Source: Clostridia bacterium (GTDB lineage: Bacteria > Bacillota > Clostridia > UMGS1810). Taken from it: a stretch of 64,000 nt of DNA. Every line of letters starts with the position of its first letter. Position 1 is the stretch's first letter. The stretch spans positions 124,001 through 188,000 of the forward strand of contig JAFVUE010000004.1 in assembly GCA_017502845.1 (NCBI GenBank). Direction: 5' to 3'. The position numbers and the translations under genes are program-made. This document shows, piece by piece, positions 26,409-41,642 of the stretch. Under the pieces are notes generated by a model, which did no database searches, had not been told where the DNA came from, and worked only from the letters and a program-made list of their open reading frames with translations.

Positions 26409-27146
26409 TTATTTACCAAGTACGCTCAAAGCATTTGAAACCATTGCGGCGGCTTCGCCTCTTGTGATTGGCTCATCGGGGCGGAAAGTCCCGTCCTCAT
26501 AACCGTTCACAATTCCGTATGCTTCAAGTTTGTCAATATGGATTTTTGCCCAATGCTCGTCTGTGTCGGTAAATCTCGATTCTTCTGTTCTTGCTCCGAA
26601 TGCCGATGCAATTGCAAGTGCAAAATCTTCTGGCTGTTCATTGAGTTTTGCTGCATCGTCGTTGTTTGAGATAAATCCCGTTTCAATAAGTATGGCGGGG
26701 CAGTTGGTATTGTGGAGAACATATAGGCGTATGCCAAGGTATTCCGTATCCACACGAACACCTCTGTTCATAGTGCCCATTCGATTTACTATTGCATCCT
26801 GCACAGCATTTGCATAACTCTCTGCCACACCGCCTCTTGCAGATATAAGCACTTCCGTTCCGTTTGCGATTGCCACACCGCTGTTGCAATGGATACTTAT
26901 AAAGAAATCGCAACGGTTGTTGTTGGCAATGCGTACTCTTTCGCGGAGAGAAGATGAAGCATCTGTGCCAAGATTGTCTGTAAGATTGTTTCTTGTCATC
27001 ACAACCTGATGCCCGTTTGCGATAAGCGCTTCGCGGAGTTTGTCGGCAATGGCAAATGTTATATCCTGCTCTTTAAGTCCTCCCACACCGACGGCACCTG
27101 TGTCGCCACCTGAATAGTTGTGTCCTGCATCAACGCAGATTTTCAT
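26409..27146 (-). CDS. Phage endolysin: amidase_3 with C-terminal SLH domain
   Basis: A 245-residue N-acetylmuramoyl-L-alanine amidase that would cut the peptide-sugar bond of peptidoglycan for lysis. The zinc-amidase core (residues 1-185) has CVDAGHNYSGG (His), GGLKEQDITF (Glu), FFISIHCNSG (His) and AILIETGFISN (catalytic Glu). A single SLH domain follows (DEHWAKIHIDKLEAYGIVNGYEDGTFRPDEPITRGEAA). No signal peptide, so it needs the holin to reach the wall. Last gene of the particle operon; its ATG overlaps the previous stop. Confidence 0.9.
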   Translation of the reverse strand: MKICVDAGHNYSGGDTGAVGVGGLKEQDITFAIADKLREALIANGHQVVMTRNNLTDNLGTDASSSLRERVRIANNNRCDFFISIHCNSGVAIANGTEVLISARGGVAESYANAVQDAIVNRMGTMNRGVRVDTEYLGIRLYVLHNTNCPAILIETGFISNNDDAAKLNEQPEDFALAIASAFGARTEESRFTDTDEHWAKIHIDKLEAYGIVNGYEDGTFRPDEPITRGEAAAMVSNALSVLGK

Positions 27147-27418
27147 ATATTATCTACCTCCTCAATTGCTATGGCATAGATTCCTCTCGGATTCGATTTG
27201 AAATCATAATTAGCCCCCGCAGTAATAAATGATGAAGTATAATTTGTTATCACACTTGTTTCAGTTCCGTTATCGTCATATATCTGTTCGTCAAGAGAAC
27301 TTTCGTGGAGAAGGTACCCGTCTTTCGGATATATGCGGTAGGAGACAGTCTCGTCGTTTTCGTTGACTCTTGCCTCGAAACGGGTATTTGTGATTTTTGT
27401 GCGAACTTTTTTGTACAT
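27143..27418 (-). CDS. Small phage protein between fibre and endolysin genes
   Basis: A 91-residue soluble protein (MYKKVRTKITNTRFEARV...) with alternating polar and aromatic residues that suggest beta structure; no family recognised. ATG 27418 has GGGGGGAT upstream; a longer frame from 27451 has no site. Position between fibre and lysin suggests a tail-tip accessory or lysis accessory role. Overlaps the endolysin start by 4 bases. Confidence 0.6.
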   Translation of the reverse strand: MYKKVRTKITNTRFEARVNENDETVSYRIYPKDGYLLHESSLDEQIYDDNGTETSVITNYTSSFITAGANYDFKSNPRGIYAIAIEEVDNI

Positions 27419-27429
27419 CGTATCCCCCC

Positions 27430-28158
27430 TTATGCTACTGTGAGATTCCACTTTTTGTCGTCGATATATTCAATCCATGTATTGCCGTTGGGAGAGGTTG
27501 AGCCAAGACTTTCAAGAGTGGAAACTGTTTTAGAATGCAATGTGAGTGTTCGTGTATATTCATCTGCTGTTCCCGTAAAATCAAAAAGTGCAGTAATAAT
27601 ACTTATAATGCTGTCTTTGGTTAGTAACGAGCTGTGTGCAACAGTAAAATTATTACCTATCACACCTTCTATTGTGAGGTTTCTCAACCTGGTGCAACTA
27701 TTAAAAGGGCTTGTATATCCACCTTCTTTTTTGCATCTCATTGCGGCCACTGTATGCAGATTGTAGCACCATCCAAATGTTTGATAATATCCACCTGGCG
27801 GCATTCCCACATCTTCTATTTCTTCAAGAGCGGAACAACGTCTGAATGTGCAATAATTGTTGCTTGTGTTTTCTGCTCCGTTGTTGGCTGTAACATTCGA
27901 CAAATCCAGATAACGGCTTTCGACTTTTTTTAGTTTGGGTGAGTCTTCAAACATACAGATACTGCGACTTGTTGGGACAATTTGGTAAGTCGGGTTAAAT
28001 TCCTCGCATCCCCAATACTTAAAACCGTACTCATAGAACTTTCGATTACCATAATTGGTAATCTTATCCCACATATTGCTCTCGCCCTCGGAACATCCTG
28101 CGTCAAATACTTTCTTCTCGTTCTCGGCAATGGCGGTAAGTTTTTCTGCTATACTCAT
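27430..28158 (-). CDS. Leucine-rich-repeat-like tail fibre/receptor-binding protein
   Basis: A 242-residue protein. The N-terminus MSIAEKLTAIAENEKKVFDAG is a helical attachment segment common in clostridial prophage fibres. The rest has irregular BspA-like repeats (CTFRRCSALEEIEDVGMPPGG, FGWCYNLHTVAAM, FNSCTRLRNLTIEG) that form a solenoid for surface binding. It overlaps the upstream gene by 4 bases. Likely receptor recognition; host target unknown. Confidence 0.7.
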   Translation of the reverse strand: MSIAEKLTAIAENEKKVFDAGCSEGESNMWDKITNYGNRKFYEYGFKYWGCEEFNPTYQIVPTSRSICMFEDSPKLKKVESRYLDLSNVTANNGAENTSNNYCTFRRCSALEEIEDVGMPPGGYYQTFGWCYNLHTVAAMRCKKEGGYTSPFNSCTRLRNLTIEGVIGNNFTVAHSSLLTKDSIISIITALFDFTGTADEYTRTLTLHSKTVSTLESLGSTSPNGNTWIEYIDDKKWNLTVA

Positions 28159-28655
28159 AATTCTTCACCGCCAATCAAGGTGTTTTGCAGGTCAAGAATT
28201 GCATCAAGTGCCGAATCTATGTCCCCTGTTTCTGCTTTTATTGCATCTGTTGCCGCCTTTGTGGCTTCTTCTGCGGCACGGGCGAAGTAAATCTCCCATG
28301 CATCCTTTTCGGGAATGGTGGGGGTTGTACCTTCTCTGTAAGCACCTTCTTTTATAACAATATGCGAAAAGTCCGTACTTATGCGAAAAACCTCGTCCCC
28401 CTCGCTTGTGCCGTACACACCAACGGAAATGGCTGCGGGGGATAGAAGCAATTCAGCAGGAACGGTGCACATATCATCTTCCACCAATATGGTGTACACT
28501 TTGTCTCCATCCGTAAATACGGCAAATTTCAAAAGTCCGTTCCATTCCGGAGAGAAATCGAAACTGCATTTGTAGTAATTCACACTTCCCGATACAGCTG
28601 ATGATGAACCTTTAAGTGCGATTCGGTCTTTGTCAACATTAAAACTGTATGTCAT
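28155..28655 (-). CDS. Baseplate/upper fibre protein
   Basis: A 166-residue protein with a beta-rich N-terminal domain (about 1-115) that ends in HIVIKEGAYREGTTPTIPEKDAWEIYFARA. A helical coiled segment follows (AAEEATKAATDAIKAETGDIDSALDAILDLQNTLIG). This architecture recurs in clostridial prophages just before receptor-binding proteins, similar in placement to BppU adaptors. The helical tail probably trimerises. It starts inside the holin 3' end, a 17-base overlap. Confidence 0.6.
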   Translation of the reverse strand: MTYSFNVDKDRIALKGSSSAVSGSVNYYKCSFDFSPEWNGLLKFAVFTDGDKVYTILVEDDMCTVPAELLLSPAAISVGVYGTSEGDEVFRISTDFSHIVIKEGAYREGTTPTIPEKDAWEIYFARAAEEATKAATDAIKAETGDIDSALDAILDLQNTLIGGEEL

Positions 28656-29055
28656 CTTCCCGTTCCTCCTTTTCTTTGAATTTCTTTAATATATAGATTA
28701 ACTTCTCAGGCATGGGAACACCTAAATCTGCGGCGTTTTCCACAATGCTGATGCCCTCGTTTGCAATGTAAAAGCCGATTACAGCCGAGCGAATTTCATA
28801 AATATCCAATATTTTTCCGAGCATATGGGCACACGCCACAATGCAGAGAATTGCCGCCTTGCGGAGTATGCCGTTGAAACCGACGCTGCTGCAGAGTTCT
28901 TTGCGGTATATGGCGGCGGATACGCCTGTTATGTAGTCGATAACTATCATTATGAGGAGTACGCTGAGCAGAGCATCAATTCCGCCGAAAATATACGAAA
29001 GTCCGCCGAAAATCCCTGCGGATGCAATTTTAATCCATGTGATGATGTCGTTCAT
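28639..29055 (-). CDS. Phage holin, TcdE/holin_4 type
   Basis: A 138-residue membrane protein with about four hydrophobic stretches: WIKIASAGIFGGLSYIFGG, ALLSVLLIMIVIDYITGV, AAILCIVACAHMLGKIL and AVIGFYIANEGISIVENA. The tail KFKEKEEREDDI is charged. DYITGVSAAIYRKELCSSVGFNG is the holin_4 signature. It should form membrane lesions that release the endolysin. ATG 29055 is preferred over GTG 29061 by spacing from AGAAGG. Unusually, two tail-tip genes lie between it and the endolysin. Confidence 0.85.
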   Translation of the reverse strand: MNDIITWIKIASAGIFGGLSYIFGGIDALLSVLLIMIVIDYITGVSAAIYRKELCSSVGFNGILRKAAILCIVACAHMLGKILDIYEIRSAVIGFYIANEGISIVENAADLGVPMPEKLIYILKKFKEKEEREDDIQF

Positions 29056-29073
29056 TTTCACACCTTCTTTCTC

Positions 29074-31122
29074 TTAATAATCAATATCTAATGTAACGGC
29101 TATGTCGTATACTGCTTCCAGACTGTAACAGGCGTTTGGAGCATTTCCTGAGGGGCGGACGTATCCACCTGCACCGAAGTACAGCATTGCCGCCCCGTCG
29201 TAAGTAAGGGTTTTTTTGCTGTTTTTGAGGTTGACAGTAGTACCTGAAGCACTTATTTCTATAATCTGCGGAACGGTGTAAACTCCGATATCCTGCGACA
29301 CAAATTGGTTTTCCAGTATAACCGCACCTGTGTCGCTCATCTCGTCTGTTATACGGGTAGGGGTTACGGATGCACGAACCATCTGATTGATAAGGTCGTA
29401 TTTTTCTGTGTCGGTAAGATTATCATCTTCAAGGATTTTGTTGTAAACCCTTGCAATCTCCTGCCATGCCGCACCTTCGAGTTCAATAACGCCGTAAGTC
29501 GTGGTGTTTGTGGTTTTTTTGCACTTTACTGTGCCTTTGGCAAACTGATAGGTAGATGGTATCAGGTGCCCGTGCCAGTAACGTTTCTGTCCGCCGTGAT
29601 TGAATTCCGTGTAATCGTAAGGATTCCCGTTTTTGTCCCTTTTGTATATGTAGCGAAATCCCTCTTCAGCGCTCATGGTCGCTTCAAATCCGTCAGGAGT
29701 GGTTATGGTGAAACTGTTTCCCGTAAGTGAAGCATTTCCGTCTTCGGAACGGATAGTTATCTTATCCGTGTCGATGTATCCTGCGTTCAGCCATGGGGCA
29801 TTTATGGTGTCTGCCATAAACACATCCGCCGTGCCGATAGTGCGCCAGTCCCAGTCGCCGTCGGGCTTTTTTGAATTGGCTACGGCAAAGACACCGTCTG
29901 TTATAACCATTGCCTTGGTTGGATTGTCAACGTTGTCAACCCAGATGTCCCCGAATTGATGAACGGTAAGACGCTTCGCCATTGCATCATCGACTACACT
30001 TTGTGTTTTCTCACGGACGTTGTCGATGTACTGGCTCATAATATTGCCTGTGCTGTCGGTGATTTTTTCAAGATTTGATATCCCCGAAAGTATCTTGTCT
30101 GCAATACTTGTCCCTGCGTTTCTGTGATTTGAAAGGACGATACTGCTTCTGTACGGTTCTGCAGGGTAGTATGTCATCTCCTCAACCCGAGTGAGAATGT
30201 CAATTCCCAGTTCTTTGTCCGTAACCCTTACAGTATCGCCGATTCTCACATTCTCAAGGTCGGGAGTTTCAACGGTGTAGCTGACTTTCGGTTTGTCAAT
30301 TCCGTCTTTTGTGTCAGTACTCCAGCGTTTCTGTGCTTCGGCAAGAAGTTCTTCGGGATCGGTAATATGGGACATGTTTTCATACCCACACTTTATGTAG
30401 CCGTATGCTCCTGCGATGGGACTGTCAATATACGGCACACCGTCATTTACGGATGAAATATCCATATCATCTTGACCTAATGGATAAAGACGTGTTATAA
30501 CGCCTGTGTCATCCATTTCCTTGCGGACGGATTTAATATTTTTTCCATACATTATCCGTTTTCCGTTGTACTGGTCGTCCCCTTTGCGAAGATGAACGGT
30601 GTAATTGTCCCTGTCAAGTTGTCCCCCCACTTTTTCTATAAGTTGAGTAACAATTGCAGCAGGGTTTGACTTTGTGGCAAATATATCTGTAGGGGCAGTT
30701 ATTTCCACTTCTCCCACAGTAAATGGCGTATCGGCAAAAATTTCCTCCATAACCCACCTTGGGGTAACACCTATCCACCCGTCAATCTCTGCTTCACCGC
30801 TTTTTGTGAATGTGTGATGAATGTATTTGCAATCACAGGCATCGTACCAAACGTGGTTGCAGGATATACACACAACGCCTTTGCCCTCACTGTCCCTCTG
30901 GGGGGATATACCACGGATGCGGAACAGTTGCCCGTCAATCTTGATGAAATCATCGTATTCCGCTATGGTAAGAACACTATCGTTCGACGGGAGAAGAAAT
31001 TTTGCGGTGTATTCTCCGTTTATAACCTGATGGACGGAGAGTTCCAAAGCGTCTTTGATAATGGCATCGCCAAGATTAGAAAAATCCGTAGTATCTTTTT
31101 TGTAAAGTATAGGATAGTTCAT
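29074..31122 (-). CDS. Tail-associated (Tal-like) tip protein / prophage endopeptidase tail
   Basis: A 682-residue tail-tip protein. The first 370 residues follow the gp27/Tal-like hub fold of 'prophage endopeptidase tail' proteins: INGEYTAKFLLPSNDSV, GQLFRIRGISPQRDSEGKG, NVRIGDTVRVTDKELGI. The middle has SNLEKITDSTGNIMSQYIDNVREKTQ, a coiled linker. The C-terminal part has beta-rich fibre segments (DIWVDNVDNPTKAMVITDGVFAVA, NAPWLNAGYIDTDKI). No catalytic peptidase motif could be located with confidence. It starts 12 bases after the Dit gene. Confidence 0.8.
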   Translation of the reverse strand: MNYPILYKKDTTDFSNLGDAIIKDALELSVHQVINGEYTAKFLLPSNDSVLTIAEYDDFIKIDGQLFRIRGISPQRDSEGKGVVCISCNHVWYDACDCKYIHHTFTKSGEAEIDGWIGVTPRWVMEEIFADTPFTVGEVEITAPTDIFATKSNPAAIVTQLIEKVGGQLDRDNYTVHLRKGDDQYNGKRIMYGKNIKSVRKEMDDTGVITRLYPLGQDDMDISSVNDGVPYIDSPIAGAYGYIKCGYENMSHITDPEELLAEAQKRWSTDTKDGIDKPKVSYTVETPDLENVRIGDTVRVTDKELGIDILTRVEEMTYYPAEPYRSSIVLSNHRNAGTSIADKILSGISNLEKITDSTGNIMSQYIDNVREKTQSVVDDAMAKRLTVHQFGDIWVDNVDNPTKAMVITDGVFAVANSKKPDGDWDWRTIGTADVFMADTINAPWLNAGYIDTDKITIRSEDGNASLTGNSFTITTPDGFEATMSAEEGFRYIYKRDKNGNPYDYTEFNHGGQKRYWHGHLIPSTYQFAKGTVKCKKTTNTTTYGVIELEGAAWQEIARVYNKILEDDNLTDTEKYDLINQMVRASVTPTRITDEMSDTGAVILENQFVSQDIGVYTVPQIIEISASGTTVNLKNSKKTLTYDGAAMLYFGAGGYVRPSGNAPNACYSLEAVYDIAVTLDIDY

Positions 31123-31134
31123 ACAATCGCCTCC

Positions 31135-31893
31135 TTACAAAAACCGCTCGGAATACATTATCGTAATATCTCCCGAACCGCCTTCGCCGTAATCCACGGA
31201 TATACTATTGATTCCTGGTACAAGTTCAAAGAAATCGCCTTCGCACTTGTGAAGAATTGAAATCCCGTTCATTGTAGCAGTCATATTCTCCGTGTCGATA
31301 ATCGCTCTTGAGTTGTCAAAGGGGGTGTTTATCGAAAAGGTTTTGCCTGTCTGATTATGGGTTATTTTGATGCTGTCTGTTGCATTACCGTCAATCCATA
31401 TGACAAAGGGAGTGTAGTATCCGAGGTTAGTCGTTCCTACACCGTCTGTACCCGAACAGGCAAGTTGTTCAACGCCATAGCGGAATGGCTCACACTTGAA
31501 AACGAGGGGGAAAGTTCCCGAACAATCTGTAATATCCTGAACATTAAAAAGGTTTGCAACGTGCGCCATATAATAGACGTTTGGCTCACTGTCAAAGGTA
31601 AGCCGTTTGTTTTCGCTTGTGGTAAGCCAATTTGCAAGGTTGGATATTTTCTCGATATAACGCTCTCTGGTTTTGTCATAACCTGCAAAATGACATTCAA
31701 GTTCTATAATACGCGGTTTGAAACACATCCTCCCTTTAAGGTTGTCGGTAGTAAAGTTTAATTCTCCGTCTGCTCCGGGAATGTCTTCGTAGACGGTTTT
31801 CGGTTCGGCAAATAGTGGGCGAGTGATTGAATCAACGTATATGCCCATATTATCCAGCGAGTGTCTGCCGTCAAAAACAAAATTGTCTGACAT
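31135..31893 (-). CDS. Distal tail protein Dit
   Basis: A 252-residue siphophage tail-tip hub component. The N-terminal half (FDGRHSLDNMGIYVDSITRPLF, YEDIPGADGELNFT, LECHFAGYDKTRERYIEKI) is the ring-forming Dit/TIGR01633-like domain; the C-terminal half is a galectin-like beta domain. It lies in the standard order tape measure-Dit-Tal, which supports a long, flexible, non-contractile tail. Confidence 0.82.
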   Translation of the reverse strand: MSDNFVFDGRHSLDNMGIYVDSITRPLFAEPKTVYEDIPGADGELNFTTDNLKGRMCFKPRIIELECHFAGYDKTRERYIEKISNLANWLTTSENKRLTFDSEPNVYYMAHVANLFNVQDITDCSGTFPLVFKCEPFRYGVEQLACSGTDGVGTTNLGYYTPFVIWIDGNATDSIKITHNQTGKTFSINTPFDNSRAIIDTENMTATMNGISILHKCEGDFFELVPGINSISVDYGEGGSGDITIMYSERFL

Positions 31894-31896
31894 AAA

Positions 31897-33447: not shown

Positions 33448-33449
33448 AT

Positions 33450-33698
33450 TTACCACCTACCTTTCTTTAATAATTCTGCAGTTTCACGGTTACTCGCCCT
33501 GACAATTGGCTTTTCTCCGGACATGAGTTTTGTTATCACAAAGGATGCCGCTTCGTCTATACAGAATGCGGTGTAACCGTCATCAATCCTCATGATTTGG
33601 CTCACTTGGCTGTTGTTTGCCTTCGCCACCGATACTATCCTTATGAAGTTCTCTGATGACACGAAAGTATTCGAGCCCGTCGGCTCCTCCTTTGGCAT
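33450..33698 (-). CDS. Second tail-assembly chaperone frame (T-like), start uncertain
   Basis: Up to 82 residues in the +1 frame relative to the preceding gene, overlapping its last 116 bases. The likely functional part is the C-terminal IDDGYTAFCIDEAASFVITKLMSG onward. No ribosome-binding site precedes the ATG at 33698. An internal ATG near 33591 overlaps the stop of the upstream gene (ATGAGGATTGA) and would allow coupled reinitiation. In siphophages this position holds the T part of the G/GT chaperone pair, made by frameshifting. Confidence 0.5.
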   Translation of the reverse strand: MPKEEPTGSNTFVSSENFIRIVSVAKANNSQVSQIMRIDDGYTAFCIDEAASFVITKLMSGEKPIVRASNRETAELLKKGRW

Positions 33699-33984
33699 AA
33701 TGATAGATTTCCATAAGTTGAGTATCAGTCAGCTGGTCTTTGACTTCCTCGTAAGATGGATTTATAAGCGACGCCTCTGCGATTGTGTGAAGAATTTCGC
33801 CGATTTCCTTTATGGATACAGGTTCGCTCTTCGGAGCAAATTCAAACAGCTTTGCAGCAGCGGAAAGTAAGGGGTTGGGAATCTTTCCAAGCATCGCAAG
33901 AGTCAGGATGCTTGGGCGTTTCAGTATAACGCTCATAGAATCTCTTCCGTCATACGAAGAGATGTTTACGCATATTTCGTTCAT
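33583..33984 (-). CDS. Tail-assembly chaperone, G-like
   Basis: A 133-residue protein placed between the tail-tube gene and the tape measure, the standard place of chaperone G, which coats the tape measure during tail assembly. It has a short basic N-terminus (SVILKRPSILTLAMLGKIPNPLL) resembling Firmicutes phage G proteins, a helical middle, and a polar, disordered end (GGEGKQQPSEPNHED). The call rests on position and general resemblance rather than a sharp motif. A hairpin terminator lies just upstream. Confidence 0.6.
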   Translation of the reverse strand: MNEICVNISSYDGRDSMSVILKRPSILTLAMLGKIPNPLLSAAAKLFEFAPKSEPVSIKEIGEILHTIAEASLINPSYEEVKDQLTDTQLMEIYHYAKGGADGLEYFRVIRELHKDSIGGEGKQQPSEPNHED

Positions 33985-34008
33985 AGTGAAATCTTCCTTT
34001 CAGAGATT

Positions 34009-34037
34009 AAAAACAGCGGCGGCATCCGCCGCCGCTG
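34009..34037 (-). terminator. Attenuating terminator after the major tail gene
   Basis: On the minus strand, a 10-bp GC stem (CAGCGGCGGC / GCCGCCGCTG, 4-base loop, 34014-34037) is followed by TTTTT. It sits between the tail-tube gene and the chaperone genes, inside the operon. Confidence 0.85.
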
Positions 34038-34054
34038 TCTGCTTGGTTTGATGG

Positions 34055-34612
34055 TTAATCAATATTTTTAAGGACTTCCACAGAAACACTGCTTTCGCCT
34101 GTTTTGGCTCTGGAGTGCAATGTGAGTTCAGGAATGAAGAATTCTCCGTCTTTGATGGAGTATTCTACTGGTTTGCCCTTTGCGTGTCTGAATGTGAACT
34201 TGATGTATTCAAGTGTTTCACCGTCGCAATCAAGTTCCTCTGTGTAGAGTGCCACAGTCAGATTTTTGCGTTCTGTAACCTTGCCCACAACAGGAGCGGC
34301 GTAGGATACGAAGTTTCCATCCTCGTCATTTGTTACTTCGCCGCCGTCAACCAACGCGAGAAGTTCGGGGCAGAATGTGTTGTTCACAAGTTTGATCTCG
34401 TAGCCGAGAAGAATGTCTTCGTAACGGAGAGAAGCAAGGATAGTGTTTTTCACACGGTGGATTTTCTCCGTACCCTCACTTGCATAGGGTTTGATAGATG
34501 CCTCAGACGATGTGGTAAACACATATACATCCCCGGTGTCTTCTTCTGTGATTTCAGCGCGAACGATGTTGGCAAGAACGCGTTCATCAAGTTTTTTTAC
34601 TGTTTCGGACAT
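34055..34612 (-). CDS. Major tail (tube) protein
   Basis: A 185-residue beta-rich protein (LANIVRAEITEEDTGDVYVFTTSSEASIKPY ... GKVTERKNLTVALYTEELDCDGETLEYIKFTF ... IPELTLHSRAKTGESSVSVEVL). It resembles the phi13/TP901-type tube family found at this position. It should polymerise into the tail tube around the tape measure. The following terminator hairpin fits a protein made in excess over its downstream neighbours. Confidence 0.72.
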   Translation of the reverse strand: MSETVKKLDERVLANIVRAEITEEDTGDVYVFTTSSEASIKPYASEGTEKIHRVKNTILASLRYEDILLGYEIKLVNNTFCPELLALVDGGEVTNDEDGNFVSYAAPVVGKVTERKNLTVALYTEELDCDGETLEYIKFTFRHAKGKPVEYSIKDGEFFIPELTLHSRAKTGESSVSVEVLKNID

Positions 34613-34632
34613 ATAAAATAAATCCTCCTTTT

Positions 34633-34977
34633 TTAATTTTTACAGCCCATTGGCTTTATAACACGGTAATTAAGCACACGGGAATACCCGCCTGTGTTTT
34701 CGTTTGCGGTTGTGCCGCCGTTACCGTCAAATCTGAATGATGTCCCTTTAAGGGCTGCTTTTACTTTGCCTGACGTTTCATCAAGCAAAGCAAATCGCTC
34801 CAGCGGAACAACTACAGTAACCGTGTAGTGGGAGTGGATGCATCGCCCTGTAAGTCCGGGTGTGCTTTCTTCTTCATCGACTACGGCATATGGGTGTGTG
34901 CATTTACCGGTTTTCTTGGCAGGCAGATATGTATCTATCCCTGCATCTTTAAGATGAGAAAACAGTTTTTTAATCAT
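34633..34977 (-). CDS. Tail terminator/completion-like protein
   Basis: A 114-residue protein (MIKKLFSHLKDAGIDTYLPAKKTGKC ... HYTVTVVVPLERFALLDETSGKVKAALKG) of the size, order and alpha/beta pattern expected for a tail-completion protein that caps the tube before joining the head. Function is inferred from position; no unique motif seen. Confidence 0.55.
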   Translation of the reverse strand: MIKKLFSHLKDAGIDTYLPAKKTGKCTHPYAVVDEEESTPGLTGRCIHSHYTVTVVVPLERFALLDETSGKVKAALKGTSFRFDGNGGTTANENTGGYSRVLNYRVIKPMGCKN

Positions 34978-34986
34978 ATTTGCCTC

Positions 34987-35352
34987 CTATTCTTTGGGTA
35001 TAATGGAGAGAAGATAATAATACCCTTTCATATCTTCTACAAAGCTTACGGAATATTTTTTGTTTTCGATGGTAACCGTGTCCCCGATTTTTATATCAAG
35101 TGGTTTGTCGTAGGGCAGTATCGCCATTGGAACACGTCTGCGATGAGTTACGGCTTCATCGGTTGTGCGAAGTCCTGTGTAGGGGTTGTATCTGTGAAGA
35201 AGTTGTGATATATACAAACGGTGGTTCGCATATCCCTTTTCTTCTGTTATATCGCCGAACTCGTCTGTTTCAGCTCTTGAAAACAAGGCGTCTACCGTAA
35301 AGCAATGGTTTTCGAGAATGCGCTTTATACGGATTTTTGATAATCTTTTCAA
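34987..35352 (-). CDS. Head closure/minor structural protein
   Basis: A 121-residue protein with a predicted beta barrel (ILPYDKPLDIKIGDTVTIENKKYSVSFVEDMKGYYYLLSIIPKE), typical of head-closure or head-tail joining proteins such as SPP1 gp16. Position between the gp6-like connector and tail terminator supports this. TTG 35352 overlaps the previous TGA (TTGA); AAAGGGG lies about 11 bases upstream. Confidence 0.6.
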   Translation of the reverse strand: MKRLSKIRIKRILENHCFTVDALFSRAETDEFGDITEEKGYANHRLYISQLLHRYNPYTGLRTTDEAVTHRRRVPMAILPYDKPLDIKIGDTVTIENKKYSVSFVEDMKGYYYLLSIIPKE

Positions 35353-35606
35353 GAAGCATCGCCCCTTTTCATCTGCCCTGTACGGTTTTTACGGTAAAGG
35401 GCGGCAAGGGAGAGCCAGTACTTTCTCGATGATTCCAATGTCATATCCGAAAGTATAAGTTTGTCGCTCTCTGCCTTTATGATAAGTGCTTTGTACGATG
35501 CCTCGTTAATATCGAAGTTGCAATCTGCGTATATGCGTTCAAGTTCTTCCTCTGTGAAAAAAGGGTAATCCGTCTCCCTGATGTTGGCTTTTAATATTTT
35601 AAGCAT
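35349..35606 (-). CDS. Head-tail connector (gp6/gp15-like)
   Basis: An 85-residue helical protein (YPFFTEEELERIYADCNFDINEASYKALIIKAESDKLILSDMTLESSRKYWLSLAALYRKNR) matching the small 'phage gp6-like head-tail connector' type that forms a ring below the portal. It directly follows the capsid gene in transcription order. Confidence 0.68.
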   Translation of the reverse strand: MLKILKANIRETDYPFFTEEELERIYADCNFDINEASYKALIIKAESDKLILSDMTLESSRKYWLSLAALYRKNRTGQMKRGDAS

Positions 35607-35628
35607 TAGGTATCACCCCGCAATCTTA

Positions 35629-36666
35629 TCAGCCGCGGCTGATGATTCTTGCGATGGGGATTGCCTTGTGGTCGATAGCAGCTGTACCCTCTGCATTTTT
35701 AACGAGTTCCCAGTTTGCCGCAGATTCAAGTTCTGCATCTGTGGGGGAGAGAGTTGCCATATCGGATTTTGTGAAGTTGATGCCGTAGGGGGCAAAAATC
35801 TTTCTCTGTCTGGAATAGAGTGTGGTTCTGCCGCCGTTTTTGGCTTCGTCCCTGTCCATAGCGTAGGGAACAGAAGCACCTACATCCACATAATCAAATG
35901 CACCGTCGCCTAAGATGTATGTAGTGTATGTAATGTTGTCGCCGTCGACCACTACAGGCATAGTATCGTCGATAAACACAGTTCTGCCGCACCATGTACC
36001 GAGAGTGAGATCTCTCTGGATACCGTTTTCATCTGTGTATTTGAGACGGTCGATAAGGTTGAGGTTTTCAAGGTTTGTGGCAACTGCAGAATGCATGAAA
36101 ACAAGTGAGAACTTGTCTTTGTTGTCGCCACAGGCCTTCTGGATTGCTGTGTTGAGGGTTGTAGCCGCAACCTTTGCTCCATCACCTGCTTCAGCAGAAA
36201 TGTCGAGTGTATGACCGTTTACGAATTCCTCGTTTGCGTCGCCTGTCATAGCAAATACACCTTTGAGGATTGCAAGGATAGTTTTCTGGTCAGTTTCGTC
36301 CCAGTACTGTGCCACCTGAACAGCCACGTTGTCCATAAAATCTGTACCTGCAACGTCAGCAGAGAAGTCGTTCTCAACCCATGCCTTTGCGCGTCCCACA
36401 ACAACCATACTCTGTGAGAATGTGCTTGTTTCGTTTGCTGTGATGTCTGTAGAACCGTCGTAGTTCAATGCATCGCCACCAATAGTAGCAAACATAGGCA
36501 CTGTACCGTAAAAGCCGCCGCTCTGCTCGGAGAACATATCCTTAAGTTCGGGACGGAGACGGAGAGCGCCTGAGTGCACGAGTTCGTTTCTTTTGAGGTT
36601 TGGTATCTGGTTTACATATTTACCGAAAACCTCGCCGTTAAATGTTTTTGAATTAAAATTAGACAT
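35629..36666 (-). CDS. Major capsid protein
   Basis: A 345-residue HK97-fold-type coat protein. Features: N-terminal SKTFNGEVFGKYVNQIPNLKRNELVHSGAL, the E-loop-like region with NYDGSTDITANETSTFSQSMVVVGRAKAWVENDFS, and DKFSLVFMHSAVATNLENLNLIDRLKY in the P-domain. No protease precedes it, and no N-terminal delta domain is evident, so maturation cleavage is not expected. A separate scaffold gene lies just upstream, as in SPP1-like and phi29-like systems. Confidence 0.85.
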   Translation of the reverse strand: MSNFNSKTFNGEVFGKYVNQIPNLKRNELVHSGALRLRPELKDMFSEQSGGFYGTVPMFATIGGDALNYDGSTDITANETSTFSQSMVVVGRAKAWVENDFSADVAGTDFMDNVAVQVAQYWDETDQKTILAILKGVFAMTGDANEEFVNGHTLDISAEAGDGAKVAATTLNTAIQKACGDNKDKFSLVFMHSAVATNLENLNLIDRLKYTDENGIQRDLTLGTWCGRTVFIDDTMPVVVDGDNITYTTYILGDGAFDYVDVGASVPYAMDRDEAKNGGRTTLYSRQRKIFAPYGINFTKSDMATLSPTDAELESAANWELVKNAEGTAAIDHKAIPIARIISRG

Positions 36667-36702
36667 TTATATTTTCCTCCTGTCAATTCAGCCGTTTTTC
36701 GG

Positions 36703-37245
36703 CTATCTGTTTGCCTCCAGTTGCATCATCTGTGAGTAGGTAAGAGTACCTTGAGGAGAAGATTCGTTTCTTGGAAAATTTCCCTTGGTACCGCCGGGAG
36801 TGGGGCCGTCGAAGAGGTACGGATCACTCTTTTTAAGTAAATCTAACTGCTGCGCAACAGATACCATAGTGTTTTCCCCGTCGGGATTAATAAGTGCCCG
36901 TACTGCTTTTTCGTTCTTTCCGCCTGATTTGCGGATAAGTCCCGAAATCTCATTCTCCAACTTTACCTGCTCAAGTTCGCCGTTAAGTATTGAGATATGT
37001 TCATCATACTTCTTTTTAAGTTCGGTCATATCAGTTTCAAATCTGTCTGCATCTGCGGCACGGGATTTGAGCTCTTCCGCTTCCGACTGCAGAGTCGATA
37101 TTGTTTCTCTGGCACTGTTAAGCTCATCACGCTTTGTGTTGTAGTCTGCTTTTGCTACGAATTTTTTGCCGAGTTCATTCTTAAACTGTGATATAACCTC
37201 TTCCGTAACGGCATCGCCGAAGGTCTGTTTCAAAAATTCAATCAT
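36703..37245 (-). CDS. Capsid scaffold protein (GP20/gp11-like)
   Basis: A 180-residue protein with a long central coiled coil (about residues 35-100: LNSARETISTLQSEAEELKSRAADADRFE...) and a short C-terminal helix (LTYSQMMQLEANR) that probably contacts the coat protein. This is the layout of the 'phage minor structural protein GP20' scaffold family. It guides procapsid assembly and then leaves. Confidence 0.82.
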   Translation of the reverse strand: MIEFLKQTFGDAVTEEVISQFKNELGKKFVAKADYNTKRDELNSARETISTLQSEAEELKSRAADADRFETDMTELKKKYDEHISILNGELEQVKLENEISGLIRKSGGKNEKAVRALINPDGENTMVSVAQQLDLLKKSDPYLFDGPTPGGTKGNFPRNESSPQGTLTYSQMMQLEANR

Positions 37246-37334
37246 AATATCCTCCCTTTGGTGTCATTTGCATAAAGACACCTTATACACTGTCCTTGAT
37301 GTGGCAGCCAGTCCTGCCTTTTGTGCAAATCCAT
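37242..37334 (-). CDS. Possible tiny ORF between portal and scaffold
   Basis: A 30-residue frame (MDLHKRQDWLPHQGQCIRCL...) fills most of the 139-base gap and overlaps the scaffold start as ATGA, suggesting coupling. It has a CxxC. No good ribosome-binding site precedes the ATG. Weakly supported. Confidence 0.28.
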   Translation of the reverse strand: MDLHKRQDWLPHQGQCIRCLYANDTKGRIL

Positions 37335-37384
37335 TTGTTGTTCGCCGATGTAGGCGATATTTTTATTAAAAGGGGTTATCCCGT

Positions 37385-38752
37385 TTAATCTATCATATTT
37401 TCTTCAGCAATGGCTTCAATCTCTGCCTTGCCGTCTGTGGATATGTTCCACTTTTCAATGTAGTTTCTGCGGCTTCTCACTTTTGCATTTACTTCATTAA
37501 GGTCAGTAATGCGTTCCGCTTCCTCGTCCTCCATAATGGGATAGAGATGCTCAATTTTTATGGTGTAGTCCGCTTCGGGCAATCTGGCATAGCCGTATAC
37601 TGAATTGATTTTCAGTATGGCTTCAACGAGCCATTTGATGGCACTGTCCCAGGCGCACCATCTCTCTTCACATTTGCAGATGAGTTCCCAGTAAAGTGCT
37701 TTCATTGCCTTTCCGCTTTGTACGATACCCGAAAGTTGCTCTGTTGTGATATAGGGCACTTCCATAATGTCGTACATATCGGATTTTACACGGTTGATGC
37801 TGTTCTCGTATGCTTCGGAATATGAGAAGTTGCTTTCCAGTTTCTCAATAGCCGCATCTCCGTCTGCCGCCTGATCTGTCTGCAGGTCGATTACGGCATT
37901 GGGTGCAATCCTCATATTGTCAAGACAGTCCCCACTGGCGTTCTTCGCGATGGTTACGGGGAACATATGAAACATAAGAGTATCAGCATCGTCGCTTTTA
38001 AGACGGTTGTATCTGTCCTGATTGGAGATAAGTTCTGCTACGTCGCTTTCGCCTTTGAGATCGCCTGTTAAGGGATCGTTCACGATAATATATGCAGGGA
38101 TAAAATCAAGCCCTGTATCGTTGAAATCGTGAATAATCTCTTTGATTTTTCCGTTGCCGTCGTAGATTGCTTCGGTTATGTAGCATCTGCCGCCTTCGAG
38201 TTCAAATTTCTGTTTCCAGAATCTCTGGTCTTTCTTCTCTTTCTCGTCGTTGAGACCGTAGAAAAATACTATTTTCTTCATCCTGTCGGATTCGTCGAAT
38301 TCTGTGTCATAGATAAATTCAAACGATGGACGGAACATTATCTCAACGCCGTCTGCACCGCACCAGAGTTTTAATGCAACACGTCTGCCGATAAAGCAGT
38401 CTCTTCCTGCCATAGTAAGTTTCTTTGCAAATTCGTTGTCTGAAAGAACTTTCCTTATATAATCCTGAATAATTGCCGCCGCATCGGGAGATGTGGCAGA
38501 TTCTATGCGGATTTCAGGAGTACGCGAAAACATAAAACGTGCTTCTTTCTTGATAATCTTCTTGATGAAGTTAGTTACCATTCTGGTGGGGGTGTAGTCG
38601 AGATTGCCATTTCCTGACCACACCTGCCCCGAACCATCATAATAACTGTAGAGTCCAAGTATTTCGGAGATGTCTGCCAGTACATTTTGTGCGAAGATTC
38701 CGTTTATCTCATCCATAATGGTTTTCTGGATCGGGTATGATAAATTGTTCAA
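37385..38752 (-). CDS. Phage portal protein, SPP1 gp6-like
   Basis: A 455-residue portal that forms the dodecameric DNA gate. It shows FIPAYIIVNDPLTGDLKGESDVAELISNQDRYNRLKSDDADTL and a C-terminal acidic, helical part (YPIMEDEEAERITDLNEVNAKVRSRRNYIEKW) typical of the SPP1_Gp6 family. TTG 38752 is chosen because AAAGGAAGTG lies 7 bases upstream; the ATG at 38797 lies inside a dispersed repeat and has no site. No MuF-type minor head gene follows it. Confidence 0.85.
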   Translation of the reverse strand: MNNLSYPIQKTIMDEINGIFAQNVLADISEILGLYSYYDGSGQVWSGNGNLDYTPTRMVTNFIKKIIKKEARFMFSRTPEIRIESATSPDAAAIIQDYIRKVLSDNEFAKKLTMAGRDCFIGRRVALKLWCGADGVEIMFRPSFEFIYDTEFDESDRMKKIVFFYGLNDEKEKKDQRFWKQKFELEGGRCYITEAIYDGNGKIKEIIHDFNDTGLDFIPAYIIVNDPLTGDLKGESDVAELISNQDRYNRLKSDDADTLMFHMFPVTIAKNASGDCLDNMRIAPNAVIDLQTDQAADGDAAIEKLESNFSYSEAYENSINRVKSDMYDIMEVPYITTEQLSGIVQSGKAMKALYWELICKCEERWCAWDSAIKWLVEAILKINSVYGYARLPEADYTIKIEHLYPIMEDEEAERITDLNEVNAKVRSRRNYIEKWNISTDGKAEIEAIAEENMID

Positions 38753-38772
38753 ATTAACACTTCCTTTTTTCT

Positions 38773-38806
38773 TCAGATGCGTGTCGGATACTAACACATC
38801 TGCTTA
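38773..38806. repeat. Solo copy of the TAAGCAGATG repeat inside the prophage
   Basis: GTCGGATACTAACACATCTG plus CTTA (38783-38806) matches 20 of 24 positions of the right terminal repeat of the element at 54975-55251. An inverted half (CAGATGCGTG) precedes it, so it can form a hairpin. It lies between the large terminase and portal genes. Confidence 0.7.
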
Positions 38807-40048
38807 CCTTGATTTATTTTCTCTTATTGGCTTTGAAGCCACGGTGGAGCAGAAATACCTTACAGCGTCCATAGCGTGGTCGTTTTCTTTTAAGGGTTTG
38901 TCCTCGCCACGGTCAACTGCGGAGGTGTCCCATACATACATAGAGAATTCCGCCACGGTGTTTTCCAATGATTTGTGAAAGAAAATCTCTTTCTTCGACA
39001 GCATCGTACCTACAAGGCGTATGCCGTCAACCACGTCATTCCGTGCTTTCTTCACTCTGTAACCACGGGACTTTATTTCTGCGATAAAAGATGCGGCGGA
39101 TGGGTCCACAATAACCGCCACGGGATTGATATCCCCGAGGAATTCGGCAAGGTCGTTAGCATACAGGGCATCTGTTTTCTGCACACCGCTTTCCCTGCCG
39201 CAATAGTAGTATTCCTTTATGGCATACCACTTGCCTTGATGTAATCCCCATAGCAGATATGCACAGGGGTTCTGTGTACCGTAGTCGATGGATACGAAAT
39301 ACTTTTCATAAATATCCCCCACATCGTCAAAGATGTTGTCGGGACCGAACATATCGTAAATCACACCGTCTGCGGCAACCCATTGCCCAAGGATAAATCT
39401 GTTATAGAAAACTCCTGTGTACATTCTCCGGTAGCGGTTCTTCACTTCGTCGGAAAGCGAAAGGTTGTCATCCATAGTGAAGTGAAGGTACACAAGATTT
39501 TTTCCGGCATCAATCCAGTTTTTCTTAAACCAGTGGCTGGGACCTTCGGGGTTGCAGTTGAACCAGAATTTGGAGCCGGAAACAGAGCATCTTGCCGCCG
39601 CCTGATTAACAAAACTTTCCGCAAGGAGCGCCGCCTCATCAAAGAGTACACCACCCAAGGTCATTCCCTGAATCTTCTCACGGCTCAGTTCGTCGCCTCC
39701 TCCAAACATATAAAAGCAGTTTGAAGAAGATGATGAGGTTATTTCCATAAATCCCTCTGTCATCTTTTCCCGGATGACAAAGCCACGACTGCGCAGTATG
39801 GGGAGAAGCGGGTATATAACATTTCGTTTAAGTGAATTAACGGTCTTGCCGCAAAGTGCAAAATTAACACCGCTGAAACGATGCATTGCCCACAGCACAA
39901 AAGATAAGGACATACACAATGTTTTTCCGCTTCGGACGGCACCGTCTGCTATAATTCCGTCTGCATCTTTGCAAGGAGAGGTGTCAGCCCACCAGCTTAA
40001 TACCTTTTCCTGTTTGTTTGAAAACTTCGTAAATTCAATCTGTATCAC
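38804..40048 (-). CDS. Terminase large subunit, PBSX/T4-like
   Basis: A 414-residue packaging motor. The ATPase part has DGAVRSGKTLCMSLSF (Walker A) and LGGVLFDEAALL (Walker B with catalytic Glu). The RNase H-like nuclease part has YFVSIDYGTQNPCAYLLWG, AVIVDPSAASFIAEIK and ENDHAMDAVRYF, the three acidic sites. All key residues look intact, so the motor should be functional. GTG 40048 overlaps the small-terminase gene by 14 bases; GGAAGG lies close upstream. Confidence 0.9.
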   Translation of the reverse strand: MIQIEFTKFSNKQEKVLSWWADTSPCKDADGIIADGAVRSGKTLCMSLSFVLWAMHRFSGVNFALCGKTVNSLKRNVIYPLLPILRSRGFVIREKMTEGFMEITSSSSSNCFYMFGGGDELSREKIQGMTLGGVLFDEAALLAESFVNQAAARCSVSGSKFWFNCNPEGPSHWFKKNWIDAGKNLVYLHFTMDDNLSLSDEVKNRYRRMYTGVFYNRFILGQWVAADGVIYDMFGPDNIFDDVGDIYEKYFVSIDYGTQNPCAYLLWGLHQGKWYAIKEYYYCGRESGVQKTDALYANDLAEFLGDINPVAVIVDPSAASFIAEIKSRGYRVKKARNDVVDGIRLVGTMLSKKEIFFHKSLENTVAEFSMYVWDTSAVDRGEDKPLKENDHAMDAVRYFCSTVASKPIRENKSR

Positions 40049-40373
40049 CGCCTTCCCATATCTTACCTGCTTTTCCCTGAAGAACGGCTATGAGATTGTC
40101 AAAATCGCTCTCCGTCTCATCGCTATTTTGCCGCATTATGTATTTGCCCAGCAGTTCGATGGCTTTGAGCTTGTCGTAAAATTTAATCTCCACACCGTCT
40201 TTTACGTTTTTAACCTGGGATATGGCAGGGAAGAAACTTTCGTATTTTGCAAGTTGCTTTATAAAGTCGGCGTATTCTTCGCCGTCAAGGTTGCGGCTTA
40301 CTTCGCTGAAATCGGCAAAGGCAATCTTTTTGAGTTCGCAGATGATTTGTTCTATGACATCGTCGTTACTCAA
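40035..40373 (-). CDS. Terminase small subunit, C-terminal-type domain
   Basis: A 112-residue protein. It matches the C-terminal part of PBSX XtmA-type small terminases: KKIAFADFSEVSR, then VKNVKDGVEIKFYDKLKAIELLGKYI, whose usual form is VKxGxDGVxIKLYDKxKALExLxxY. The usual N-terminal helix-turn-helix is missing here and appears to be on the preceding gene. The start is TTG 40373, with GGAGG 8 bases upstream inside that gene. Confidence 0.72.
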   Translation of the reverse strand: MSNDDVIEQIICELKKIAFADFSEVSRNLDGEEYADFIKQLAKYESFFPAISQVKNVKDGVEIKFYDKLKAIELLGKYIMRQNSDETESDFDNLIAVLQGKAGKIWEGGDTD

Positions 40374-40629
40374 TTGCCATACCTCCGCCTACGTCGGCTA
40401 TGGCAGAAGCAAATCCCATAAGTGCTCTCCGAGCATTTGTTATATCAAAATACTCTATGTGCCGACGCACCTTGTCGTAGTAACCATCTGCCTTGCACTC
40501 TGCAATAATATCCAATACCTGCCCCAAGCTACGTTTCATAAGTTTTGCAGTTTCTATGGGAGATTCGCCGCGGATATCCCACATACATACAATCCATTTA
40601 GTGTTTGGTGTCAATTCTCTGTCCTTCAT
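40366..40629 (-). CDS. Small helical protein, possibly the DNA-binding half of the small terminase
   Basis: An 87-residue helical protein (MKDRELTPNTKWIVCMWDIRGESPIETAKLMKRSLGQVLDIIAECK). The SPIETAKLMKRSLGQV stretch could be a helix-turn-helix. First gene of the leftward operon. ATG 40629 follows GGAGG at 6 bases; longer frames have no site. It overlaps the next gene by 8 bases. The terminase link is inference from position and from the missing N-terminus of its neighbour. Confidence 0.55.
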   Translation of the reverse strand: MKDRELTPNTKWIVCMWDIRGESPIETAKLMKRSLGQVLDIIAECKADGYYDKVRRHIEYFDITNARRALMGFASAIADVGGGMAIE

Positions 40630-40731
40630 ACTGTCCTCCAAATCCATGCATCGTCCGTGAAAAAAGTGCGGAATCACTAACAACACGGTTTTCTGTTTTT
40701 CAAAGTAAAAAGAAACCGGATAAAGAAAAAC

Positions 40732-40777
40732 TTACGAAAAACGAAAGTAGAAAAACCAAAACTTACGTATTTCGTAA
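40732..40777. promoter_or_regulatory. Operator-like repeats for the S24 repressor
   Basis: TTACG-TATTT-CGTAA (40763-40777) is a perfect inverted repeat; TTACG-AAAAA-CGAAA (40732-40746) is a near copy. Two more TTACG/CGTAA half or partial sites are at 40818-40825 and 40861-40866. They cover both divergent promoters. Confidence 0.6.
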
Positions 40778-40781
40778 TTGC

Positions 40782-40811
40782 ATATTAGCATATTGAAAAT
40801 TCAAAAGTCAA
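40782..40811 (-). promoter_or_regulatory. Leftward promoter of the particle operon
   Basis: On the minus strand, TTGACT (40806-40811), an 18-base spacer and TAATAT (40782-40787). The operator-like repeat at 40763 lies just downstream and another at 40818 just upstream. Confidence 0.6.
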
Positions 40812-40852
40812 TACTTTTTACGTAATTTTTTTGAAAAATGAAAATTTTTTCT

Positions 40853-40881
40853 TGCATTTCCCGTAATTGTGTGTTAGAGTA
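40853..40881 (+). promoter_or_regulatory. Rightward promoter of the repressor gene
   Basis: TTGCAT near 40853, a 17-base spacer containing the half operator CCGTAA, and TAGAGT; TATAGT overlaps further on. Self-repression is likely from the half site in the spacer. Confidence 0.45.
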
Positions 40882-40917
40882 TAGTTGACAAGGTGTAATT
40901 TTTTAAGAGGTGATAGC

Positions 40918-41541
40918 GTGTCAAATATAAAGAAACGCCGTAAAGAACTGGGTCTAACTCTGGCAGAACTTGCTGCGAGGGTGGGACTTCGTGATGCTAC
41001 AATTCAGCGTTATGAAAGCGGCGAGATACCGAATATAAAGAAAGATACTATAATGAAACTTGCAAAGGAACTCAAGTGTACCCCCGGTTATCTTATGGGT
41101 TGGACGGACCTTGAGACGGTTACTTCCTCTGCAGATGCGTTTATGAAGATTCCCGTTCTCGGACTTATCCCTGCAGGTGTGCCTATTGAGGCGGTGGAGG
41201 ATGTTCTCGGTTATGAGGAGATTCCATCGTCATATTGCGCAGGTGGAGAGAAGTATTTTGCACTTAAACTCAACGGAAACAGTATGTATCCCGAATATCA
41301 CAGCGGCGATATTGTAATACTGAAACAACAGGAAACCTGTAACAGTAATGAGGATTGCGCCGTAATGATAAACGGCGGGGATGCCACATTTAAGAGGGTT
41401 GTCCGTCAGAAAAACGGTATAATGTTAAAGCCACTCAATCCCAATTACGACACCCTTTTCTATACTAACGAAGAGATTGAGCAACTGCCTGTCCGCATAA
41501 TCGGAGTGTTCAAAGAATTGCGCAGAAGAAGCACCAATTAA
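40918..41541 (+). CDS. S24/LexA-like phage repressor (Xre-type HTH plus peptidase S24)
   Basis: A 207-residue repressor. The N-terminal helix-turn-helix (KKRRKELGLTLAELAARVGLRDATIQRYESGEI) binds DNA. The C-terminal S24 domain has ALKLNGNSMYPEYHSGDIVI (catalytic Ser in GNSM) and CAVMINGGDATFKRVV (catalytic Lys), with a hinge near PVLGLIPAGVPIEA. RecA-stimulated self-cleavage would lift repression on DNA damage, as for CI and LexA. GTG 40918 follows AAGAGGTGAT. It is divergent from the particle genes, with operators between them. Confidence 0.9.
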   Translation: MSNIKKRRKELGLTLAELAARVGLRDATIQRYESGEIPNIKKDTIMKLAKELKCTPGYLMGWTDLETVTSSADAFMKIPVLGLIPAGVPIEAVEDVLGYEEIPSSYCAGGEKYFALKLNGNSMYPEYHSGDIVILKQQETCNSNEDCAVMINGGDATFKRVVRQKNGIMLKPLNPNYDTLFYTNEEIEQLPVRIIGVFKELRRRSTN

Positions 41542-41576
41542 TTACAATTTTTTCCAATACAAAACAGCATAAAAAT

Positions 41577-41636
41577 ACCTCCCGAGGGAATAATGGAATT
41601 GTAAGATTTACGATATTCCATAAATCCGCGGGAGGT
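41577..41636 (+). promoter_or_regulatory. Hairpin covering the sigG ribosome-binding site; also a terminator for the repressor
   Basis: ACCTCCCG (41577-41584) pairs with CGGGAGGT (41629-41636). Inside are ATGGAAT / ATTCCAT and GTAA / TTAC. The 3' arm contains the sigG Shine-Dalgarno GGGAGG, and TTTTTT follows at once. It can act as a terminator or as a mask on read-through sigG mRNA. Confidence 0.7.
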
Positions 41637-41642
41637 TTTTTC

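Follow-up and report, generated by a model that had tools for sequence, protein, structure and literature searches.

Few gene transfer agents (GTAs) are known outside the Alphaproteobacteria, and RcGTA, that of Rhodobacter capsulatus, is run by host regulators located elsewhere in the genome. Its small terminase subunit (TerS), gp1, belongs to a random-packaging terminase and has no N-terminal helix-turn-helix (HTH) (PMC6854486). A 2026 gut study observed that many Ruminococcaceae and Oscillospiraceae package short random DNA and named a locus for Faecalibacterium only, FpGTA, whose TerS is also reported to lack a DNA-binding domain (PMC12946183). Here, we describe a phage-derived locus in a 64,000-nucleotide stretch of a Clostridia bacterium genome (contig JAFVUE010000004.1, positions 124,001 to 188,000), hereafter the window. 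We think it probable that this is a domesticated, vertically inherited, GTA-like particle locus that is controlled by an S24 repressor and packs chromosomal DNA.

The locus (26409-41541) consists of a minus-strand operon of 20 genes encoding a siphovirus-type particle (26409-40686) and a divergent S24 repressor, with sigG lying beyond (Table 1). The gene calls rest on Pfam and PHROG profile matches, and these bear out what had been described from the sequence alone, namely an intact packaging, head, tail and lysis set of a tailed phage, as expected of a GTA, in about 15 kb with one repressor; the edges were also placed correctly, with the amidase opening at 26409 and the repressor closing at 41541. 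The large terminase (TerL) was rightly said to have intact Walker motifs and nuclease acids: it carries Walker A ADGAVRSGKT, a Walker B-like GGVLFDEA and the nuclease acids in IDYG, VDPSAA and DHAMD, and the ATPase motifs recur in the sister loci. By the usual tape-measure rule, a tail of roughly 80 nm would be expected from the 519-aa protein at the tape-measure position. A slippery site was sought in the overlap of the tail-chaperone-like pair (phrog_6280/6541), and no common one was found. The amidase bears an S-layer homology (SLH) domain of host type.

No integration, replication or recombination gene was found within the block by Pfam or PHROG, as the sequence-only reading had held, and the 820 kb assembly of the window genome, which is 72% complete, contains neither a tyrosine (PF00589) nor a serine (PF00239) recombinase. 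No direct repeat of at least 11 bp joins the two edges of the locus, so there is no detectable att repeat, and no tRNA or Rfam match occurs in the window. Thus, the integrase, replication module and att sites that would mark a temperate prophage were not found. The base composition of the locus matches that of the flanking host genes (GC 0.444 versus 0.439; GC at third codon positions 0.457 versus 0.431). The sequence-only reading had also listed head proteolysis among the missing functions; a head protease gene is indeed missing, but this is not a loss, since phages whose scaffold is of the PF06810 type commonly do without one.

The window genome (G000) is one of three genomes of its genus, the others being G001 and G002, and the locus adjoins sigG in all three, which is the vertical inheritance at a fixed site seen in GTAs and agrees with the position by sigG that had been pointed to. 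In G002, it sits between eamA and sigG, the eamA flank being common to G000 and G002, and in G001 it lies on a 15 kb contig whose opposite end carries sigG and its neighbours. Apart from genes cut by the contig end in G001 and one small over-diverged protein at the fibre end, gene order is the same across the genus, and no broken genes or stops were found in any of its loci. A 14.3 kb contig in IMG/VR, the uncultivated virus genome (UViG) 3300031555_008474, carries a fourth intact copy (identity 86% for TerL, 85% for the portal and 91% for the major capsid protein, MCP), and IMG/VR also holds shorter pieces of the operon from other metagenomes. Within the family, one other genus (G015) has the same element at a different site, with identities of 58% for the repressor, 45% for g106, a small HTH protein encoded next to terS, 56% for TerL, 68% for the MCP and 36% for the 519-aa protein, and the element is absent from the remaining genera. 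Outside the element's own contigs, the identity of any TerL or MCP in IMG/VR or the phage records stops at about 57-62%, and no close phage of full length was found at other sites.

Some further observations concern these relatives. The G015 locus lies near proS-gltX, which is a candidate shared ancestral position only, and has repeated peptide-coding units (IPQSALQTAPFTQGGLLRTVGDAGSYD) between g106 and terS (L188:14586-15442) and a 433-aa SLH protein between the repressor and g106. Another UViG (3300031555_010461, L245) carries a phage early region whose genes include a single-strand-binding-like one and others of replication type; the last gene, at the edge of the contig, is g106-like, which suggests that the ancestral kind of phage survives in complete form.

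The sequence-only reading had proposed the ratio of nonsynonymous to synonymous change (dN/dS) as a check on domestication, and this ratio is host-like: 0.04-0.10 for TerL, portal, MCP, tail tube and repressor, against 0.03-0.07 for sigG, lon, engB, uvrD and eamA. Between G000 and G002, for instance, it is 0.04 for TerL, 0.05 for portal, MCP and repressor and 0.06 for the tube, with lon at 0.05, uvrD at 0.06 and eamA at 0.07; the sigG value, 0.04, comes from the sole pair with unsaturated dS. Judged by these ratios, the core genes are under purifying selection at the level of host genes, as in GTAs. The proportion of synonymous differences, averaged by hand, is about 0.68 both in the element and in host genes; such near-saturation makes the locus an old one in the genus. 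The TerL tree places G000 and G002 together with G001 outside, the same topology as that of the host genes; a larger tree makes G015 sister to the genus clade (100/99, with long branches), and a smaller one leaves the place of G015 open. The exception is the tail-tip protein (27430-28158), with far higher dN/dS (Table 1); Dit and the fibre proteins also diverge, and the head genes are nearly frozen.

The feature that bears most directly on packaging is TerS, which is 112 aa long in all four loci of the genus clade (G000, G001, G002 and the UViG), with a match to Terminase_2 that begins only at model position 64; its reading frame has no upstream room for an HTH, and its start is overlapped by g106. 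The G015 protein is longer, matches the model from position 1 and has a plain HTH. Pfam and alignment are the basis of this assignment; an AlphaFold model of TerS had too low a pLDDT (46) to be of use. A TerS without a sequence-specific DNA-binding domain, one of the features by which GTAs are recognised (PMC6854486), is thus found here. By analogy with the described systems, it would be the strongest pointer to random packaging, and with the DNA-recognition domain of TerS gone, the motor most likely takes up chromosomal DNA non-specifically.

About 200 bp separate the repressor from the operon, and this region carries repeated operators of TACG/CGTAA type around the leftward promoter and in the repressor's own promoter. 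The predicted leftward promoter is TTGACT (40806-40811)-N18-TAATAT (40782-40787), and the predicted operators lie at 40732-40743, 40763-40777 (TTACGTATTTCGTAA), 40815-40830 and 40860-40869; four loci preserve both the operators and the divergent promoters despite the near-saturated synonymous sites. The repressor has the Ala-Gly cleavage site (IPAGVP), the serine (GNSM) and the lysine (TFKR) of self-cleaving S24 repressors, and for this reason induction of the locus by DNA damage is likely. AlphaFold models g106 (pLDDT 78) as an HTH of three helices plus a long one, and fold searches returned generic HTH matches only, none below E 0.001. Among 391 genomes of the class, strong g106 matches are confined to the element's lineage; weak ones in G149, G186, G210 and G231 turned out to be other HTH or sigma-like proteins. 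Since g106 accompanies a TerS with its own HTH in G015, we judged it unlikely that g106 is the detached HTH of TerS. Both the place of its gene, between repressor and terS, and the modelled fold suggest, instead, a transcription regulator. Beyond the repressor, the sigG leader (41541-41642), conserved in the three genomes, contains a hairpin (CCTCCCG...CGGGAGG) that has the sigG ribosome-binding site as its 3′ arm and a T run after it, with a sigma-F/G-like promoter (GCATA-N15-GGAATAATG) inside; such a hairpin would insulate sigG from read-through from the repressor.

Taken together, these data fit a scenario in which domestication of a siphovirus-type prophage took place in the ancestor of the genus, probably when the lineage of G015 had not yet branched off; the element lost its integration and replication functions and was then passed on vertically beside sigG. 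Upon DNA damage, the S24 repressor would be cleaved and the divergent promoter released; the operon would yield heads and tails, the TerS/TerL motor would fill the heads, most likely with chromosomal DNA and without specificity as in GTAs, and holin and amidase would lyse the producer. The packaging of host DNA, to which the HTH-less TerS points by analogy, and its delivery to recipients are steps that we infer. All four hosts have ComEC, which serves recipient cells in other GTA systems, although so widespread a protein counts for little as evidence.

Several points weigh against this interpretation. The locus is known from its genes alone, from which we infer particle, packaged DNA and transfer; g106, directly upstream of TerS, could in principle give the packaging complex some sequence specificity; and the G015 TerS keeps its HTH. 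The near-saturated dS excludes a recent insertion from a common source, not very old exchanges, and the host genomes are only three, all incomplete metagenome-assembled genomes, with the G001 contig showing the sigG side only. The evidence thus supports domestication and vertical inheritance of a particle locus whose TerS is of GTA type, stopping short of a proven gene transfer agent.

The particle might also serve another end, since it may transfer DNA, kill relatives as PBSX does or do both. PBSX, which functions as a tailocin, packages 13.4 kb of random DNA (PMC12946183), and a similar particle, carrying random host DNA in its heads and selected for killing relatives through its tail, would agree with S24 control, holin and amidase, which fit a suicidal bacteriocin, and with the fast divergence of the distal tail protein (27430-28158), Dit and fibres beside nearly frozen head genes. 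Nevertheless, rapid receptor-binding evolution fits adsorption to changing recipients equally well, and the strongest constraint falls on head and packaging genes, which a pure killer does not need, so we regard this explanation as a serious one that is nonetheless unlikely. An F-type tailocin, which keeps its tail genes and has lost capsid and terminase, does not fit, as TerL, portal and MCP are intact here and under the strongest constraint, and neither does a capsid-forming phage satellite (cfPICI), which has integrase and replication genes and heads and borrows its tails, as there is no integrase or replication gene and the tail genes are the locus's own.

It could also be argued that active phages keep re-inserting by sigG with an integrase that was missed or acts in trans. 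In fact, the G002 contig begins with a tyrosine integrase and an HTH gene (L184:28-1634), 15 kb to the left of the element, and there are further tyrosine integrases elsewhere in G002 and some in G001 and G015. However, the pair on the G002 contig is present in G002 only and looks like another mobile element, the assembled G000 has no recombinase, att repeat or replication module, and the gene tree tracks the hosts, with no nearer phage TerL or MCP than those mentioned above; we consider re-insertion very improbable. That the locus is an ordinary defective prophage in early decay, for which the missing integrase, replication and recombination genes speak, has next to nothing left to recommend it, and on present evidence it is refuted: all genes are open at near-saturated synonymous divergence, dN/dS is at host level and the operators are conserved. 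Finally, g106, a conserved HTH protein with a long helix adjoining TerS, might replace the lost TerS domain and steer packaging to one host locus, but g106 coexists in G015 with an HTH-bearing TerS and so did not originate as its missing half, and its position and fold suit a transcription regulator; of all explanations, we give this the least credence. The domesticated-locus interpretation of the sequence-only reading is therefore supported, including its claim that this is not simple decay, and none of what would have counted against it (nonsense mutations, att sites or close full-length phages at varied sites) was encountered.

Particle loci of comparable character occur elsewhere in Clostridia. 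A capsid search led to G183, of another Clostridia family, and to a second genus-wide locus of siphovirus type, with an amidase, a BppU-type fibre, a Gp37-like protein, Dit, a 386-aa tape-measure-like protein, connectors, capsid, scaffold, portal and TerL, and with no integrase. Its capsid gene is present in 9 of 10 genomes of the genus at 79-86% and in none of the family's other genera, and the gene order is conserved, the copies including L267:4130-18168 and those of G401 and G403-G407 (L281-L289); G399 has lost most tail genes. A transporter-like gene (cluster 27) stands divergently beside TerL in five loci (G401, G403, G405, G406 and G407) and not in G183 or G399. Where dS is unsaturated, dN/dS is 0.04-0.08 for TerL, MCP and portal. 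No separate TerS and no nearby repressor were seen, and an N-terminal extension of TerL, without an HTH match, may stand in for TerS.

Scanning genome contigs for TerL led mostly to a different, compact family of integrase-less head and packaging loci, 6-10 kb long, across Oscillospirales (L014-L092). In 57 of 72 readable loci, TerL and capsid are shared in one compact order (TerS-TerL-portal-phrog_16951-decoration-MCP-connectors), followed in some by tail or baseplate genes including Baseplate_J; the sample is the best 80 TerL matches, and these proportions are not frequencies. Host genes lie on both sides, and several species pairs have both flanks in common (Table 1). Many TerS proteins of this family start at the conserved core, with about 107 aa and no HTH, while others retain it, the state being assigned by motif and eye. 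On a TerL tree of 69 rows, the HTH states need four changes, against 19 with shuffled labels, and well-supported branches force four; the DNA-binding domain would thus have been lost about four times, the window element being one such loss. A literature search whose scope excluded subscription papers and preprints found no paper describing the compact loci. Tentatively, and with a little less than even confidence, we suggest that GTA-like loci are routine and anciently inherited in gut Clostridia, having arisen from several unrelated phages with repeated loss of the TerS domain and convergent random packaging, the window being one siphovirus-type case and the compact Oscillospirales loci the main body. 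The window locus, its HTH-bearing sister and the compact family provide sequences for testing, and matched TerS pairs with and without the DNA-binding domain make the transition from a specific to a random motor directly testable.

Table 1. Features of the window locus and compact loci with shared flanks
Feature	Position	Strand	Evidence or remarks
Amidase (Amidase_3) with C-terminal SLH domain, lysis	26409..27146	-	Pfam E 2e-43 / 1.3e-17; full-length identity to G002 copy 73%
Small protein at tail-fibre end of operon	27143..27451	-	Open reading frame (ORF); no Pfam/PHROG match
Variable distal tail / putative receptor-binding protein	27430..28158	-	29-34% identity, dN/dS 0.32-0.38 between species vs 0.05 for core genes
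Baseplate/fibre-associated protein, phrog_19695 family	28155..28655	-	PHROG
Holin (Phage_holin_4_1, PF05105)	28639..29061	-	Pfam 9e-38
Tail-associated protein (Prophage_tail / Tal)	29074..31122	-	Pfam 3e-37
Distal tail protein Dit	31135..31893	-	SPP1_Dit, phrog_33
Tape-measure-position coiled-coil protein, 519 aa	31897..33456	-	Position between phrog_6541 protein and Dit; kept in 5 loci; no convincing family match
phrog_6541, downstream overlapping frame of tail-chaperone-like pair	33450..33698	-	PHROG
Tail-chaperone-like protein (phrog_6280)	33583..33984	-	PHROG
Tail tube protein (phrog_6686)	34055..34612	-	E 4e-61
phrog_7585, tail-terminator/connector position	34633..34977	-	PHROG
Head closure position protein	34987..35352	-	Position; conserved in all loci
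phrog_4020, head-tail adaptor position	35349..35606	-	PHROG
MCP (phrog_247)	35629..36666	-	E 9e-98; 88-92% within genus, dN/dS 0.05-0.08
Scaffold (PF06810)	36703..37245	-	Pfam
Portal, SPP1 Gp6 type	37385..38797	-	Pfam
TerL, Walker and nuclease motifs intact	38804..40048	-	Motifs, Pfam/PHROG, trees
TerS without N-terminal HTH	40035..40373	-	PF03592 match only from position 64
g106, small HTH protein, putative operon regulator	40366..40650	-	ORF opens at 40686; AlphaFold three-helix HTH and long helix, pLDDT 78
Divergent control region	40687..40884	.	Promoter and operators conserved in 4 loci
HTH_3 and Peptidase_S24 repressor	40885..41541	+	IPAGVP, GNSM, TFKR; 84-90% within genus, dN/dS 0.05-0.06
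Compact locus, L017 / Eubacterium coprostanoligenes ATCC 51222 (L022)	L022:9691-19685		10.4 kb between DnaI-like gene and M28 peptidase
Compact locus, L035/L052			7.3 kb, both flanks shared
Compact locus, L058/L074			7.4 kb, both flanks shared
Compact locus, L016/L029			6.6 kb, both flanks shared

As for known systems, the nearest phage MCP (62%) is that of Clostridioides phage AR1075-1 (OQ703261), a 41 kb phage with recombinases whose TerL is only 25% identical and in which most other genes of the element are unmatched. Compared by description, PBSX of Bacillus subtilis resembles the window locus in being a Gram-positive, domesticated and repressor-controlled element without autonomous replication. 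PBSX is, however, myovirus-like and larger and has another repressor type. RcGTA shares with the window locus a vertically inherited head, packaging and tail cluster and a TerS without the N-terminal HTH (PMC6854486), but it belongs to a different phylum, and the window locus retains a repressor of the phage S24 type. FpGTA of Faecalibacterium (Borodovich et al. 2026, PMC12946183) is also a genus-wide conserved element of gut Clostridia, with a TerS without a DNA-binding domain, TerL, portal, scaffold, MCP and lysis genes and with no replication genes. It differs, as far as a comparison by description goes, in being podovirus-like and in occupying two loci 125 kb from each other, whereas the window locus is siphovirus-like and forms a single operon with its own S24 repressor.

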